NCBI RefSeq assembly: GCF_900102375.1
Contig: NZ_FNBO01000001.1
Span: 1 to 64,000, forward strand
Reading direction: 5' to 3'
Source: Halorubrum xinjiangense
GTDB lineage: Archaea > Halobacteriota > Halobacteria > Halobacteriales > Haloferacaceae
DNA length: 64,000 nt
Positions 6,567 through 62,520 of the stretch are shown here, piece after piece. Position numbers and translations under genes: made by a program. Position 1 is the stretch's first letter. Every line of letters starts with the position of its first letter. A model generated the notes under the pieces. That model was not told where the DNA came from, made no database searches, and was given only the letters and a program-made list of their open reading frames with translations.

Positions 6567-6614
6567 ACCCGCCGTAGCGGCTCCGCGGTAATCAACCTCC
6601 CGCCGGCGCGTCGG

Positions 6615-6812
6615 CTACGGCGACAGCGGATTCGCGAGAACAGCGGTGCGTCAACTACGGCGACAGCGGATTCGCGAGAACAGCGGTGCGTCAACTACGG
6701 CGACAGCGGATTCGCGAGAACAGCGGTGCGTCAACTACGGCGACAGCGGATTCGCGAGAACAGCGGTGCGTCAACTACGGCGACAGCGGATTCGCGAGAA
6801 CAGCGGTGCGTC
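6615..6812. repeat. Five perfect 40-bp tandem repeats
   Basis: Five head-to-tail copies of a 40-base unit beginning CTACGGCGACAGCGGATTCG start at 6615, 6655, 6695, 6735 and 6775; the last lacks its final two bases. The copies are identical over their full length. The period is not a multiple of three and there are no spacers. The array occupies most of the 258-bp gap between the MTH865-like gene and the J-domain gene, in front of the latter. Confidence 0.95.
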
Positions 6813-7082: not shown

Positions 7083-7188
7083 ACACACGATATCCCGAGA
7101 GCGACCGCAAAAGGGTTGCGGAACAACGGTAAATGTATTTAGGGTTGTCTTTTCCGGTGACGCCCTCTGAATGCGTGACGCACCGACT

Positions 7189-7514
7189 CGAACACCGCCA
7201 GAGCCCCAGCCGTTCGCTTATAAATCGGTAATAGTAGATCGACAGCGAACACCGCCAAAGCCCCAGTCGCGAGGCGGGCGCACGCTAGTTGCGCTCCTCA
7301 CTCGGTCGCTACGGCTCCCTCGTTGCGGTGCTTACGTCGCCTGCGCCCGCCTCGCGACTGCCCCTTTGAGTCCCGCCCCGCACAGCGACCGCAACCGCAC
7401 CTCACGCCTCCCCAGCGTCGTCGGCGGTCCTCCGCTTCGCTCCGGATCGCCGACTCCCTCGCGCGTGCGACTCACGGCCGCCTCCGGCGGCCGCTCGTCG
7501 GCACGCGCCACCGC
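7189..7514 (+). repeat. Dispersed structured element, copy A
   Basis: One of four related elements in the window. In its own direction it has two leader units 57 bases apart (CGAACACCGCCA at 7189 and 7246) with a TTATAAAT box between them. Next comes a 19-bp perfect stem with arms 7264-7282 and 7342-7360 and a 59-base loop. The core TTTGAGTCCCGCCCCGCAC follows, then a hairpin CGGCCGCC-TCC-GGCGGCCG at 7475-7493, and the end GGCACGCGCCACCGC at 7514. A TTTATAAGTGA lies just beyond. Frames across it are not conserved between copies. The rest of the gap to the M42 gene (7515-7683) holds only that gene's weak promoter region. Confidence 0.85.
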
Positions 7515-10240: not shown

Positions 10241-10710
10241 GCGGTGGCGCGCGCCTGCGAGCGGCCGCCCTCGGCGGCCGCGAGGAGCACGCGCGAGGGA
10301 GTCGGTCGCCGAGCGAAGCGACGGCGACCGACGAGGTTGGGGAGGTAAGAGGTGCGGGGCGGTGCTGTGCGGGGCGGGACTCAAAGGGGCAGTCGTGAGG
10401 CGGTCGCAGGCGTTCACGAGAGCAAAGCTCTCGTGAGCCAATCAGAACGCTCCGCGTTCTGATGACGACGTAAGGACCGCAGGGCGGGAGCGAGCGAAGC
10501 GAGCGACCGAGGACCGCAGCGAGCGTGCGACCGCCTCGCGGCTGGGGCTTTGAAGATGTTCGTCGTCGATCTACAATCAGTTATTTATAAGCGAGCGGCT
10601 GGGGCTTTGGCGGTGTTCGCCGCCGATCAGCAGTCGAGTATTTATATGAGAACGGCTGGGTCTGTAGGGCGGCTTCGTCACCAGTTCGGTATAGCCTATA
10701 TATACACGTC
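10241..10710 (-). repeat. Dispersed structured element, copy B (reverse orientation)
   Basis: Read on the minus strand, this copy has leader units whose CGGCTGGG motifs (plus strand) sit at 10653, 10596 and 10539, exactly 57 bases apart, each with a TTTATA-type box. The long stem uses arms 10526-10544 and 10390-10408, pairing with G-U or single mismatches. Its loop holds two extra perfect hairpins, TCACGAGAGC-AAA-GCTCTCGTGA and ATCAGAACGC-TCC-GCGTTCTGAT (plus strand). The TTTGAGTCCCGCCCCGCAC core, a 9-bp GGCCGCC hairpin and the GCGGTGGCGCGC end at 10241 follow. The 633-bp gap around it shows no other gene. Confidence 0.83.
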
Positions 10711-24456: not shown

Positions 24457-24865
24457 AGCTATAGCTTTTATAAATGGTTGCTGGTGGATCGGCGGCGAAC
24501 GCCACCAAAGTCCCAGCCGTTCGCTTATAAATGGCTGATCGCGGATCGGCGGAGAATACCGCCAAAGCCCCAGCCGGGAGGGCGGCGCACGCTCGCTGTC
24601 GTTCGAAAGGCGCTTTGCGCCTTTCGTCATGACGAGACGCCGGAGGCGTCTCGAACCACGCGCTTCAGTCGCTCACTCCGTTCGCTCCTTCCAGTGCTTG
24701 CGTCGCCTGCGCCGCCCTCCCGGCTGCCCCTTTGAGTCCCGCCCCGCACAGCACCGCAGCCTCACACCTCCCCAGCCTCGCGGCTCCCTCCGCTTCGCTC
24801 CGGTCGCCGCGTCCCTCGCGCGTGCTGCTCGGCCGCGGAGCGGCCTCACAGGCACGCGCCACCGC
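24457..24865 (+). repeat. Dispersed structured element, copy C
   Basis: Leader units with TTATAAAT boxes (near 24468 and 24523) and CAGCCG motifs at 24514 and 24571 are 57 bases apart. The long stem has perfect 19-base arms at 24571-24589 and 24708-24726, with a sequence different from copy A yet fully complementary. The loop contains two nested hairpins, CGAAAGGCGC-TTT-GCGCCTTTCG and GAGACGCC-GGA-GGCGTCTC. The core TTTGAGTCCCGCCCCGCAC, a GGCCGC-GGA-GCGGCC hairpin (24831-24845) and the GGCACGCGCCACCGC end follow, then TTTATAAGTGA. The remaining bases up to the ABC gene hold no other gene. Confidence 0.85.
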
Positions 24866-32318: not shown

Positions 32319-35300
32319 TCACGATCCGGGTCCACGGCGCCGAGCGAGCAGCGAGGCGGCCCCGACCGCCGCGAGCGACGCGAGGGGGCCGAATCCGGGG
32401 AGGTCGTACGCCGTCGATCGGATCGGCGCGTCGTCGTACCCGAGGTCACTCGCGTCGGTCTCGTCCGCGGACCGACCGCTCGGCGCGGACGAATCGCCCG
32501 GCGCCGACGAATCGCCCGATTCGGAGATATCTGATGAATCCGTCGACTCGTCCGATGGTGTATCCGACGGCGCGTCGTTGCGTTCGCCTCCGGCGTCGTC
32601 AGGCTGCGCGCCGACCGACCGAGACTCCCCGCCTGCGGGGCCCTCCGCGCCGCGCTCGGGCCGACCGGCGTCGAACAGCCCCGACGGCCCCGCAGACCGC
32701 GGTATCTCGGACGTACCGGGAGCGATGGAGATCCCCACCCCGGGACGCGGCCCCGAGCGGTTCGCGTCCGACTCGGACGACCCTCCGGCCGAACTCGGCC
32801 CGCCAGCGCCGGCCGCGGTGCCACCACCGGTCGAGTCGGGAGAATCGGCGGCGCTGCCGGACCCAGCGGAGCCGCCGGTCGAACCACTGCCTCCAGCCGA
32901 ACCACTGCCTCCAGCCGAACCACTGCCTCCAGCCGAACTACTGCCTCCAGCCGAACCACTGCCTCCAGCCGAACCACTGCCTCCAGCCGAACCACTGCTG
33001 TCGCCGGCCGAACTGCTGCCGCCGGCCGAACCACTCCCGTTGGTCGTGCCGGATTCTGACGGGCCACCGTCGGTTGGTGCCCCGGACGAGTTGGACATCT
33101 CGGCGTCGGCGGACTGGTCCGTATCAGTCGTGTTGCTGTCGGCAGTCGACGTCTCCGAGTCGGCGGACTGGTCCGTATCAGTCGTGTTGCTGTCGGCAGT
33201 CGACGTCTCCGAGTCGGCGGACTCGTCCGTATCAGTCGTGTTACTGTCGGCAGTCGATATCTCGGTGTCGGCGGACTCGTTCTTCTTAGTCGTGTCGCTG
33301 TCGGCAGTCGACGTCTCGGACTCGATAGACTTGTTCGTCTCAGTCGTGTTGCTGTCGGCAGTCGACGTCTCGGACTCGATAGACTTGTTCGTTTCAGTCG
33401 TGTTGCTGTCAGCAGTCGACGTTTCGGAGTCGGCGGACTCGTTCGTATCAGTCGTGTTGCCGTCGGCAGTCGACGTCTCGGTCGCCCCGTCGGCCATCTC
33501 GTTTTCCGTGGCCTCGTCGGTCGAGTTCGGTGCGGCGTAGGCCAGTTCAGCCGTCACGCGGTGGCGGCTGTCCGCCGCGGTCCGGCGCAGTCGGTCGTCG
33601 TCGACGCGAAACGCGGCCGCGAACGTCTCGCCGGGATCGGGTGCCGTCTCGGTGCCGAACGCGCGCTCGCCGTCGGCGACGAGGTACAGCCCCTCGCGGT
33701 CGAGGTGGACCGCGGACTCGTTCGGCGTCGTCCCGAGCGCGTCGCCGTCGACGGTCTCGTTGTCGTCGCTGGTCTCCGCCGGCGCGACCCCGAACGAGAA
33801 GCCGTCGAGTCGGTCGAGATCCGCGCCGCGGTCCAGCGAGGCGTTCGCGGTCGCCGGGAGACCGGTCAGTCCGGTCGCGTTCACGGCGTACACGACGGTG
33901 TCGTTCGCGGTGGCGTTCGGTTCGGGCGTGAGCGTGCCGTCGTCGATCGCCTCCCGGATCGCGGTCGCGTTTTCGAACCCGTCCGGGGAGACCTCGCGCG
34001 TCGTGTACGCGGTCAGGTTGTTCGTCGAACGGGGGCCTACGGTGACCGTGGCGGTGTCGTTCGCGATTTCGGTGCCGTGTTCCGACCGCAGCGTGAGGTC
34101 GTACGTCCCGGGCGAGAGCGGACCGGTAGATCCCGTGACCGATTCGACGCTGACACCGCTCCCGGTCGCGGCGAACTCCGACGGGGAACCCGGTGACGCG
34201 TAGGTGTTGAGTGTGACGGGGCTAGGGCCTCTCTCGCTGGTGTTCAGTTCGAGTGTGGTGGTGGTGTTACTAGTCGTATTGGTAAGTGTCAAGTTCAAGT
34301 ATGGAACACTATGGAAGACCGACGTTCGAATGTAATTCCCGTAAACAGACCGATTTGGGGTGTGATTTAATTCTATTCCCTTCTCGCCCTTACCAATGAT
34401 GTTGAAATTTTCTGAGTTTCTTTTTGATGAGTGAACGTAATATGTACCAGAGGAGAGCCTAGATGTGTTGTATCCGACTTTGGATGAATTATTTATTCTA
34501 GTTCCCACAGAGACGACACGAGCTTCGTTTTCATCGACTACTTTGTGTAGTTCGATAGAATTTTCTTTTAATGATGAATTGATATAAATATGTTGTCCAG
34601 AATATACCGGCTTATTTAGTGAACGATTATAATTGATTTGGATATCAGTACCTAAATGAGATTTATTCGTGTTGAATGGTTCTTCTATTGAAATTATTCC
34701 AGCATCCGCAACACCGTCAGAGACGAACTGGTTATTTAGATCCGAGTTCCGGAGCAACTCGAAGTTTTGAGGAGAGATTTGGTCGCCAGTCTCGTGGCCG
34801 CGTGAAAGTTGAATTGCCGCAGCATAGCGGTTGCTGTGGTAAATTCCTGATTTATTGTTGGGAGTATTGAAATAAAGGGCAACATTATCATTCCATCCAG
34901 TCAGGACCCTAGAGTTAGCAATAGTTACATTTTGTAACATATACCCGGTTGAGTTGACTGGGTGTAACGAAACAAAAAATGGCGTTTCGTCTTGAATAGT
35001 GTCTTTGACTGTAGCGCTAGAAACTATGATTTTGTCTGTCTGTGGAGACTCATACGAGCGATTTTTGAGATTAACCTTCGCATTGAGTATCCGCCCTGTA
35101 TCCCTTGATAAAGCAGACTGTGCTACGTTGTGGGATAAACTATCCCGGATCTCGTAGTCAGCATCTCCAAGCGTAGAATTAGCAATAAGAAATGCCTTCA
35201 CATCACCACCAGGATAGGATGTATCAACAGAAACCGTTCGTCTTGTTCTAAGAACATTTTCAGGAAGAGGCCGAATTCCAATGATTTCATTCTCATCCCC

Positions 35301-60605: not shown

Positions 60606-61106
60606 ATGAACAAACGCGGCCACGTCCTCAACGGGCTGCTGCTCGCCTTGGGGCTGGGGTTCATCCTCGAACCGAGCCTTACCCTCGCGACCGCCGAGAC
60701 GATCGCAGAGATCACCGTTCCCGTCGTGTTGGGGGCGCTGTTCCCCGACGTCGACACCGCCTTCGGGCGCCACCGGAAGACGCTCCACAGCCTCCCCGTG
60801 TTGGCTGTCTTCCTCGCGTACCCGATCGTCTTCGGGAACCTCCAGTACGTGTGGATCGGCGTGTTGACCCACTACATCCTCGACGTGGTCGGGAGCCGGC
60901 GCGGCATCGCGCTGTTCCACCCGCTCTCGGACAAGGAGTTCGGGATGCCGTCCGGCGTGACGACGAGCAGCAAGTACGCCGACCTCGTCACCGTGATCAT
61001 CACCGGTATCGAGCTGGCGGCCTTCTGGGCGATCCACACCTACGTCGTGAACCTCGATCTGGACCTGTCCGCGGCGTCGGAGGCGGCGGCCGGATTCGGC
61101 TTATAA
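60606..61106 (+). CDS. YdjM-like membrane protein (predicted metal-dependent hydrolase)
   Basis: A 166-residue membrane protein of the YdjM family. The conserved starting His (MNKRGHVLNGLLL), PDVDTAFGRHRKTLHSLPV and LTHYILDVVGSRRG match the family metal-ligand pattern, which is more complete here than in the pair at 15503-16885. About three to four helices are present. Its stop is followed directly by TTATAAGTGA and by element copy D. Confidence 0.78.
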   Translation: MNKRGHVLNGLLLALGLGFILEPSLTLATAETIAEITVPVVLGALFPDVDTAFGRHRKTLHSLPVLAVFLAYPIVFGNLQYVWIGVLTHYILDVVGSRRGIALFHPLSDKEFGMPSGVTTSSKYADLVTVIITGIELAAFWAIHTYVVNLDLDLSAASEAAAGFGL

Positions 61107-61149: not shown

Positions 61150-61588
61150 AGGAGGTCGTCAACGATCCGGCCGTCCACTTATAAATAGCCGGTGTAGGAT
61201 CGGCAGCTACGAGCGCCAAATCTCCGACCGCTTATTTATAACTAGTTGTTAGCAGATCAGCGGCGGACACTGCCAAAGATTCGGCCATTCGCTTATAAAT
61301 GAGTGACTGCGGATCGATAGCGAACACCGCCAAAGCCCCAGCCGCGAGGGCTCGGTGCGCTCGCTGCGCGCCTCGTTCGTTCGCTCCGCTCACTCACTGC
61401 GGTGCTTACGTCGCGCGGCTTCGCCCTCACGGCTGCCCCTTTGATTCCCACCCCGCACAGCGCCTCACGCCTCCCCAGCCTCGCCGCTCGCTCGGGGCTC
61501 CCTTCGGTCGCCCACGTCGCTCGCGGCGTCCCTCGCGCGCGCTCCTCGCGGCCGCCGCCGGCGGCCGCTCGCAGGCACGCGCCACCGC
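61150..61588 (+). repeat. Dispersed structured element, copy D
   Basis: Three leader boundaries (GCCAAA at 61215, 61272 and 61329) are exactly 57 bases apart, each with a TTATAAAT or TATTTATA box. The stem is 13 bp with one mismatch (arms 61339-61351 and 61423-61435); the rest of the arms has eroded. The core reads TTTGATTCCCACCCCGCAC, two changes from the others. A 9-bp hairpin GCGGCCGCC-GCC-GGCGGCCGC and the GGCACGCGCCACCGC end at 61588 follow, eight bases before the stop codon of the convergent PHP gene. Confidence 0.82.
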
Positions 61589-61595
61589 AATCTCT

Positions 61596-62360
61596 CTACT
61601 CGTAAACGCTCACGTCGTCGAACCGGCCCTCGTAGGCGACGTTCGAGGGGAGGGTCGGCTCGTTGCCGGAGAGAAACATCCGGTCGAGTTTCACCCACGT
61701 GTTCTCGTAGGCGAGGTGTGCAAACTCCACGAGGCCGCGGAGCCGGTGGCCGGCCCCGCCGCGGTGGATCACCTTGCGGGGGCGGCGCTCGCGGAACGCG
61801 TCGGCGACCGCCTCGGCGTCGTCGAGGTCGCCCTCGAAGGCGGTCCACGCCTCGCCCGCCGTGCCGGGGAGGTGCGCGTACGACGAACCGAAGCCGGCGC
61901 AGCCGGTCGCCTCCGCGGTCCGGCGCGCCCTGACATTCTGGTGGGGGAGCAGCTTCGTGTTGTACGTCTCGACCGCGTCGATCCGGTCGGCGTGGGCGTC
62001 GACCTCCGGCCGCGTGAGCGAGATGGTGGCGAAGCCGGGATGGGGGACGAGGACGGCGGCGTCCTGCCGCTCGAACTCGGCCATCGCGCCCTCGAAGGTG
62101 ATGTAGTCGGGGACCGGCTCGGAGAGGCCTAAGACGAGGAGGTGCCGCCGGTTTCCCCAGTCGCCGGTGAACACCTCGCGAGCGGGAACGACCGTCAGCT
62201 CGTCGTCGGTGTACCGGGCCGCACGCTCGCGGATCGTCGGGAGGCGCGTGAAGTGCGGCGCGTACACGAGCGCGTCGATCCCGCGGGCCTTCGCGCGGGC
62301 GACGACCTCGTCGTCGAGCACCTTGACGTGGGCGTCGACGCGCGTTTGCGATCGGGTCAC
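61596..62360 (-). CDS. PHP-domain protein
   Basis: A 254-residue protein of the PHP metal-dependent phosphoesterase superfamily. DAHVKV near the N-terminus, YAPHFTRLP, HPGFATISL and a final KVIHRGGAGHR provide possible metal ligands. The first HxH is altered to DAHVKV, so activity may be reduced or specialised. The probable start is GTG at 62360 (VTRSQTRVDAH). The ORF ends eight bases from the dispersed element, which converges on it. Confidence 0.78.
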   Translation of the reverse strand: MTRSQTRVDAHVKVLDDEVVARAKARGIDALVYAPHFTRLPTIRERAARYTDDELTVVPAREVFTGDWGNRRHLLVLGLSEPVPDYITFEGAMAEFERQDAAVLVPHPGFATISLTRPEVDAHADRIDAVETYNTKLLPHQNVRARRTAEATGCAGFGSSYAHLPGTAGEAWTAFEGDLDDAEAVADAFRERRPRKVIHRGGAGHRLRGLVEFAHLAYENTWVKLDRMFLSGNEPTLPSNVAYEGRFDDVSVYE

Positions 62361-62520
62361 GGTCGCATGGTCGTCGCGCCCGCGCAAAGGCGTATCGTTC
62401 GACGACGACGGTGCCGCGACCGCGGACAGGGACGGTTGTGGCAGCAGGCACCGGTCGACGCCGGGAGGAGAGTCCGCCGGCTTGGGAAACCGTTAATCCC
62501 CCTCGGGCGAGAGTTCGGGT

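Follow-up and report, generated by a model that had tools for sequence, protein, structure and literature searches.

Palindromic elements of Rickettsia insert in-frame into genes and are, like the repeat described here, mobile palindromes that respect a reading frame, whereas the tandem array of the present element lies after a stop codon and amino-acid constraint is absent from it. According to the part of PMC3733652 available to us, the Rickettsia elements have a CGTC end, and REP families with GTAG or CGTC tags are likewise intergenic palindromes that lie downstream of genes, are clustered and have stems with alternative complementary bases. REP sequences measure 20–40 bp in that source, whereas the element here measures ∼250–450 bp and has neither a fixed tetranucleotide tag nor dependence on Y1_Tnp; the available main text of the paper holds no word beginning with 'Halo'. 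The PATEs (palindrome-associated transposable elements) of Haloquadratum, as presented in the available part of PMC3119063, are also transposase-free, with near-terminal palindromes, many haloarchaeal copies and no coding capacity. The present element differs from them in its three hairpins, a freely covarying P1 stem, a tandem array at one end and an occurrence in many genera, and a link to Y1 was not found. Repeats of a comparable length are the class I intergenic repeats of the Halorubrum virus HF2, which likewise measure 56–58 bp, contain a TATA box and are proven promoters (PMC8707807, in the part available). These are dispersed single copies, their motifs (TCTTTAAGTC and CGTCTNNTAGAG) are by eye unlike the unit consensus reported below, and a hairpin body is not described for them in that part of the source.

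Anatomy of the elements and spacing of the repeat unit

The window, by which we mean the whole 64,000-nucleotide stretch of Halorubrum xinjiangense DNA that was analysed, contains four elements: E1 (∼7.2 kb), E2 (∼10.5 kb, minus strand), E3 (∼24.5 kb) and E4 (61.2 kb). All share one plan, an array of short units at the left followed by a body of three hairpins and, in E1 and E3, by a second TATA-like box (neighbouring genes were delimited as open frames with high GC3, not from annotation). At the left edge of E4, TTATAA (61101–61106, plus strand) includes the TAA stop codon of the upstream plus-strand gene (60606–61106). The E4 array comprises three 57-base units (61174–61344, plus strand; motifs at 61215, 61272 and 61329), the two left units being diverged, and leads into a body with hairpins P1, P2 and P3 (61331–61588) that abuts the stop codon of a convergent minus-strand gene (61596–62387). 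E1 has an array of two 57-base units (7156–7269, plus strand; motifs at 7197 and 7254) and a body at 7256–7514, followed by TTTATAA at about 7520. E2 lies in minus orientation, with its array at 10539–10709 (units at 10539, 10596 and 10653) and its body at 10241–10551, downstream of a gene that we take, from its position, to be purH-like. The two 57-base units of E3 (24463–24576, plus strand; motifs at 24504 and 24561) adjoin a body at 24563–24865 with a nested double hairpin inside the P1 loop, and TTTATAA follows at about 24879. Two further tandem arrays were seen in the window, one with a 40-bp unit in 5.2 copies (6604–6812) and one with a 54-bp unit in 7.2 copies within a long minus-strand open frame (33094–33481).

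A preliminary description of this DNA had reported leader units spaced by exactly 57 bases in all four elements, and this is borne out at 7197/7254, 24504/24561, 61215/61272/61329 and, on the minus strand, 10539/10596/10653; its positions 7189/7246 and 24514/24571 reflect a different anchor with an identical 57-base step. Genome-wide, the unit motif (up to two mismatches) occurs 142 + 159 times, compared with 22 + 28 for the reversed control, and of the 114 distances of at most 70 bases between neighbouring units, 101 are 57. The remainder in this genome are 51 (seven cases), 63 (two cases), 48, 56, 60 and 66 bases, and spacings in other species of the genus range from 48 to 75. Variable spacing in other copies, which had been named as evidence against a fixed unit, thus occurs in part, at 48–66 bases within this genome and 48–75 across the genus. 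Among 188 non-57 spacings listed from other species, 96 are 54 and 38 are 51 bases long, and 170 of the 188 are multiples of three; these rows were compiled by hand, with three rows containing N left out, and many share ancestry, so that p-values derived from them are overstated.

The consensus of the 57-base unit in this genome is CTCGCTTATAAATGGTTGACGGCGGATCGGCGGCGAACACCTCCAAAGCCCCAGCCG, with the box and the motif as its best conserved columns. The TATA-like boxes of the preliminary description are genuine, as TTATAA or TTTATA is present in 83 of 101 57-base units, whereas the GGCGG-CGAACA-CCGCC hairpin said to lie in many units retains all five pairs in only 8 of 101 and the exact 16-mer in 4, a distribution that matches the expectation from column composition. 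Units resemble the consensus less the further they lie from the body (identities 0.79, 0.60, 0.40 and 0.32; background 0.27), with the best preserved units adjoining P1, and the final 13 bases of the last unit double as the first arm of this hairpin, so array and body constitute one element. Of the diverged units (56–75% identity over 32 bases of the right-half consensus), 33/38 are still spaced by exactly 57, which indicates that unit length is conserved beyond sequence; at the E4 locus, TATA offsets of 0, 78, 135, 192 and 249 are likewise kept across species. The earlier suggestion of a functional constraint on length therefore stands insofar as some constraint exists, but serial promoters, helical phasing and the unit hairpin are not supported as its reason; as regards helical phasing, the other unit lengths move in 3-base steps and not in helical turns. 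By eye, a second conserved module resembling TTTATAAGTGATCGAGTGGTGTTGCTGTCGGCTGTTTATAAG, with ∼34 bases between its two boxes, lies left of the array at seven loci (L101, L102, L107, L125, L077, L052 and L047).

The main stem of P1 covaries strongly: in 241 distinct bodies, 10 of its 13 positions are at least 95% Watson–Crick, and all four of the pairs G-C, C-G, A-T and T-A occur. P3 pairs nearly always, and P2 less well in the register used. The foot of P1 is AAAG/CTTT plus an unpaired CCC/CCC internal loop, and by eye it is the same in copies of a sister form from other genera (see below). The body, with P1 and P3 as near-terminal palindromes, holds no open reading frame, and the distance between the P1 arms does not keep to a frame. 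A search of the window against Rfam at gathering score returned one tRNA only, and a relaxed search of E3 gave no credible match. Extra double hairpins are frequent in the P1 loop and the P2–P3 junction. The nested double hairpin (CGAAAGGCGC...GCGCCTTTCG, ATGACGAGA...TCTCGAACCACGC) is found in the P1 loops of E3 (24595–24665) and many other bodies, in sister copies and on plasmids of other haloarchaeal genera, where the matches cover mainly query positions 33–108; it has the appearance of a further mobile hairpin of smaller size.

Copy number, distribution, gain and loss

The body is multicopy and intergenic. A 26-base body marker (up to three mismatches) detects 118 copies in this genome and none with the reversed control, and 92 of these at least 118 elements were analysed, low-scoring places not being among the matches listed. 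A 20-base marker gives 157 copies here and between 0 and 192 per genome in 52 genomes of the genus, the element being present in 50 and absent from 2. The loci listed for the exact body marker number 80, of which 78 have Halorubrum in the title and the other two are titled uncultured archaeon and Halobellus, and in the sampled family outside the genus the unit motif (up to one mismatch) occurs 0 or 1 times per genome, which is background. Across the order, 84 of 195 sampled genomes contain a sister body, GGCCCCTTTCAGTCC, in up to 67 copies per genome (control matches 0). This sister form is array-poor, with tandem copies of the P1 arm at 4 loci of the 55 copies read, in steps of 54, 72, 75 and 75/75. 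Diverged bodies also reside on Halobaculum and Haloarcula plasmids; on that of Halobaculum sp. XH14 (L296, 1430–1960) two inverted sister bodies stand back to back between two genes. A viral origin was considered and rejected, as no match was obtained in phages.

At a given site the element is present or absent according to species and may take either orientation. Thirty orthologous E4 loci carry the marker in five cases, arrays or remnants in several others and a short empty spacer in many. The upstream gene ends in TTA TAA (or ATA/CTA TAA) in species with the element and stops mostly with TGA or TAG at the same codon in species without it; three orthologs without the marker (L134, L139 and L150) are read as remnants, yet their last codon and stop stay TTA TAA. 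At the purH-like locus the element is oriented one way in some species and reversed in others. Of eight sites aligned with a relative (G100), six have kept the element, one (L001) is empty and the purH-like site has a different, inverted element. At empty sites the host spacer is replaced and no clean element boundary is apparent. Orthologous arrays have grown and shrunk locally and so differ in length between this genome and G100, with 2 versus 7 units (L003), 1 versus 3 units of 51 (L043) and 3 versus 0 (L042). At another orthologous site (L006) the pairing of P1 has been retained through compensating changes. Flanking gene pairs are convergent in 28 cases and divergent in 7 in this genome, and 53 versus 27 elsewhere, and tandem flanks exhibit no orientation preference (++ 17, −− 19 in this genome; 30 versus 29 elsewhere). 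At three loci of this genome (L078, L080 and L084) the neighbour of the element is a tRNA-like sequence, after which 3′ ends recur (GAGTTCAAATCTCGGCCGGTGCA copies, by eye) in a pattern that resembles scars of integrase-mediated insertions.

Phase of the array with the adjoining gene

In 62 of 94 arrays (p ≈ 1e-10) the stop codon of the adjoining plus-strand gene and the leftmost motif share one phase, as they do in 50 of 71 with gene and array less than 150 bases apart. Measured at the body motif, the phase is kept in 30/40 cases in this genome, 6/8 in G100, 9/15 in picked arrays, 4/7 in the ortholog sets and 20/43 in other named loci. Minus-strand neighbours show no phase, with counts of 6, 6 and 5 over the three frames in this genome, and the lock is absent from sister copies of other genera (7/18). 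Ten orthologs of E4 were read, and all seven with a detectable motif are in phase. With few exceptions among the pairs listed, orthologs that lack the element have their stop at the identical codon position, and for these pairs the gene stops are thus native.

Across orthologs, the difference in stop-to-body distance is a multiple of 3 in 23/39 plus-strand pairs versus 11/29 minus-strand pairs (Fisher p 0.085 after the score of one plus pair was revised by eye, giving 24/39). Leaving out differences of zero and multiples of 57, the figures are about 11 versus 15, and the lock is thus not strongly conserved from species to species.

Several candidate causes of the lock were rejected. Coding of amino acids by the array is contradicted by the lack of an excess of synonymous differences in that frame, and a role as back-up stops by the next frame-0 stop, which lies at a median of 48 bases as compared with 33 and 33 in the other frames (phase 0, same loci, this genome). 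The prediction that arrays with steps other than multiples of three should avoid plus-strand neighbours failed, as 13 of 17 clear cases lie beside plus genes. Amino-acid constraint, back-up stops, a frame in the body, length differences between orthologs and Y1 transposases (see below) do not account for the frame lock.

Nature of the element and alternative explanations

The leader is probably the left end, repeated in tandem, of an interspersed haloarchaeal repeat that is non-autonomous and rich in hairpins, and the most likely description of the whole is a palindromic repeat of REP/PATE type with a locally copied, frame-locked minisatellite at one end. Such a repeat would be mobilised in trans, and its arrays would grow next to P1 by local tandem duplication, either through slippage or through unequal exchange. 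On this view 57 would primarily be the unit length passed down in the commonest subfamily, and the TATA-like boxes would belong to the repeated unit rather than form a series of promoters for the body. Length would in addition be kept from drifting by a second constraint, whose grain is three bases and which is tied to the reading frame of the gene ending at the array. Three observations count against the simplest form of this explanation: the 57-base spacing of strongly diverged units (33/38), together with the frame lock (62/94), exceeds what inheritance of a unit length provides; the compensating changes in P1 at L006 suggest selection on single copies, as opposed to a purely selfish repeat; and no transposase could be linked to the element (see below).

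Serial promoters, the first function proposed for the leader, would have the TATA box of each unit start a transcript ∼27 bases downstream and fire into the body. The presence of a box in 83/101 57-base units and its place among the best conserved columns are consistent with such a function, but a box in every functional unit is not what is observed, as most 51- and 54-base units of other species have TACGTG in its place and are amplified nonetheless. The five bases before the box are of the CTCGC type, without the A-rich, BRE-like purines of the consensus used for comparison; a box also lies outside the right end of the body, 12–15 bases beyond the last hairpin in 79 of the 108 bodies having one; body orientation is independent of tandem neighbours; and the wobble bias of P1 and P3 points to the opposite strand, though that of P2 points the way of the array. 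A paper search returned no start-site data for a Halorubrum host. We consider serial promoters very unlikely, and the boxes standing in a row are more readily understood as repeated copies of a single sequence. Single units may nevertheless act as promoters, by analogy with the HF2 repeats of 56–58 bp, which are real promoters (PMC8707807, available part). The wobble bias raises the possibility that the body's minus strand forms a structured RNA or a folded single strand, the array being its 3′ tail. Non-Watson–Crick cells of P1 on the plus strand are A·C rather than G·T by 28:2 in this genome, 50:9 elsewhere and 19:7 in sister copies. The preference is 49:21 and 88:33 among single mismatches of predicted helices and 17:4 in P3, and since A·C on the plus strand is G·U on the minus strand, the excess argues for minus-strand folding. 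P2 behaves oppositely (G·T 25, A·C 3 on the plus strand), although its subfamilies are partly out of register, strand-biased mutation could produce the same asymmetry, and the Rfam searches gave no match for such an RNA. A right-end promoter for it was rejected, because the box there is too near the P3 foot for a transcript to start at the foot. On balance, a functional minus-strand fold is doubtful.

With regard to mobility, derivation from IS200/IS605, as a PATE-like or REP-like element mobilised by a Y1 transposase through recognition of its end hairpins, would agree with the near-terminal palindromes, the absence of coding capacity and the kind of host, all as for PATEs (PMC3119063, available part), and with tags resembling T(A/C)G that precede the foot of P1 in sister copies (among 55 copies CTCG 13, TTCG 12, GTAG 7, TTAG 6 and others). 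These tags are not one fixed tetranucleotide, however, in contrast to the conserved tag at the hairpin foot that defines REP/REPIN sequences, and the stem of P1 varies freely, unlike a hairpin recognised by sequence. Copy number is uncorrelated with the count of Y1_Tnp (Spearman 0.03, 52 genomes), on which ground Y1 transposase was rejected as the mobiliser, and 11 of the 52 genomes have no Y1_Tnp match yet contain up to 101 bodies. Such a derivation is accordingly unlikely. As to the frame lock, the array could act as a read-through buffer on ribosomes running past the upstream stop codon, hence its three-base grain. The phase beside plus-strand genes, overall and within 150 bases, its absence beside minus-strand genes and the preponderance of multiples of 3 among non-57 lengths are in line with this idea, as is the presence of a stop in that frame in 85 of the 91 distinct 57-base units. 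Against it, synonymous bias in that frame is absent, the next in-frame stop is no nearer than in other frames, arrays that break the three-base rule lie mostly beside plus genes and sister copies lack the lock; a read-through buffer thus appears highly improbable. Somewhat less so, but still only a tentative reading, is the broader one of a non-coding minisatellite kept in the reading frame of the adjoining gene, with 3-base steps and native-stop phase but without conservation of amino acids, as either a cis element acting on ribosomes that pass the stop codon or the outcome of stop-targeted insertion.

No description of a hairpin family with such arrays was found in searches of open-access literature, and this holds for a family with up to about 190 copies per Halorubrum genome as well as for the sister form found in 84 of the 195 genomes sampled across the order. 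The fast-changing arrays could serve strain typing. The frame lock is a statistical anomaly within non-coding DNA, and, if the frame-held reading is true, a minisatellite kept in the reading frame of its neighbour would be attached to an order-wide, apparently undescribed structured repeat of haloarchaea.
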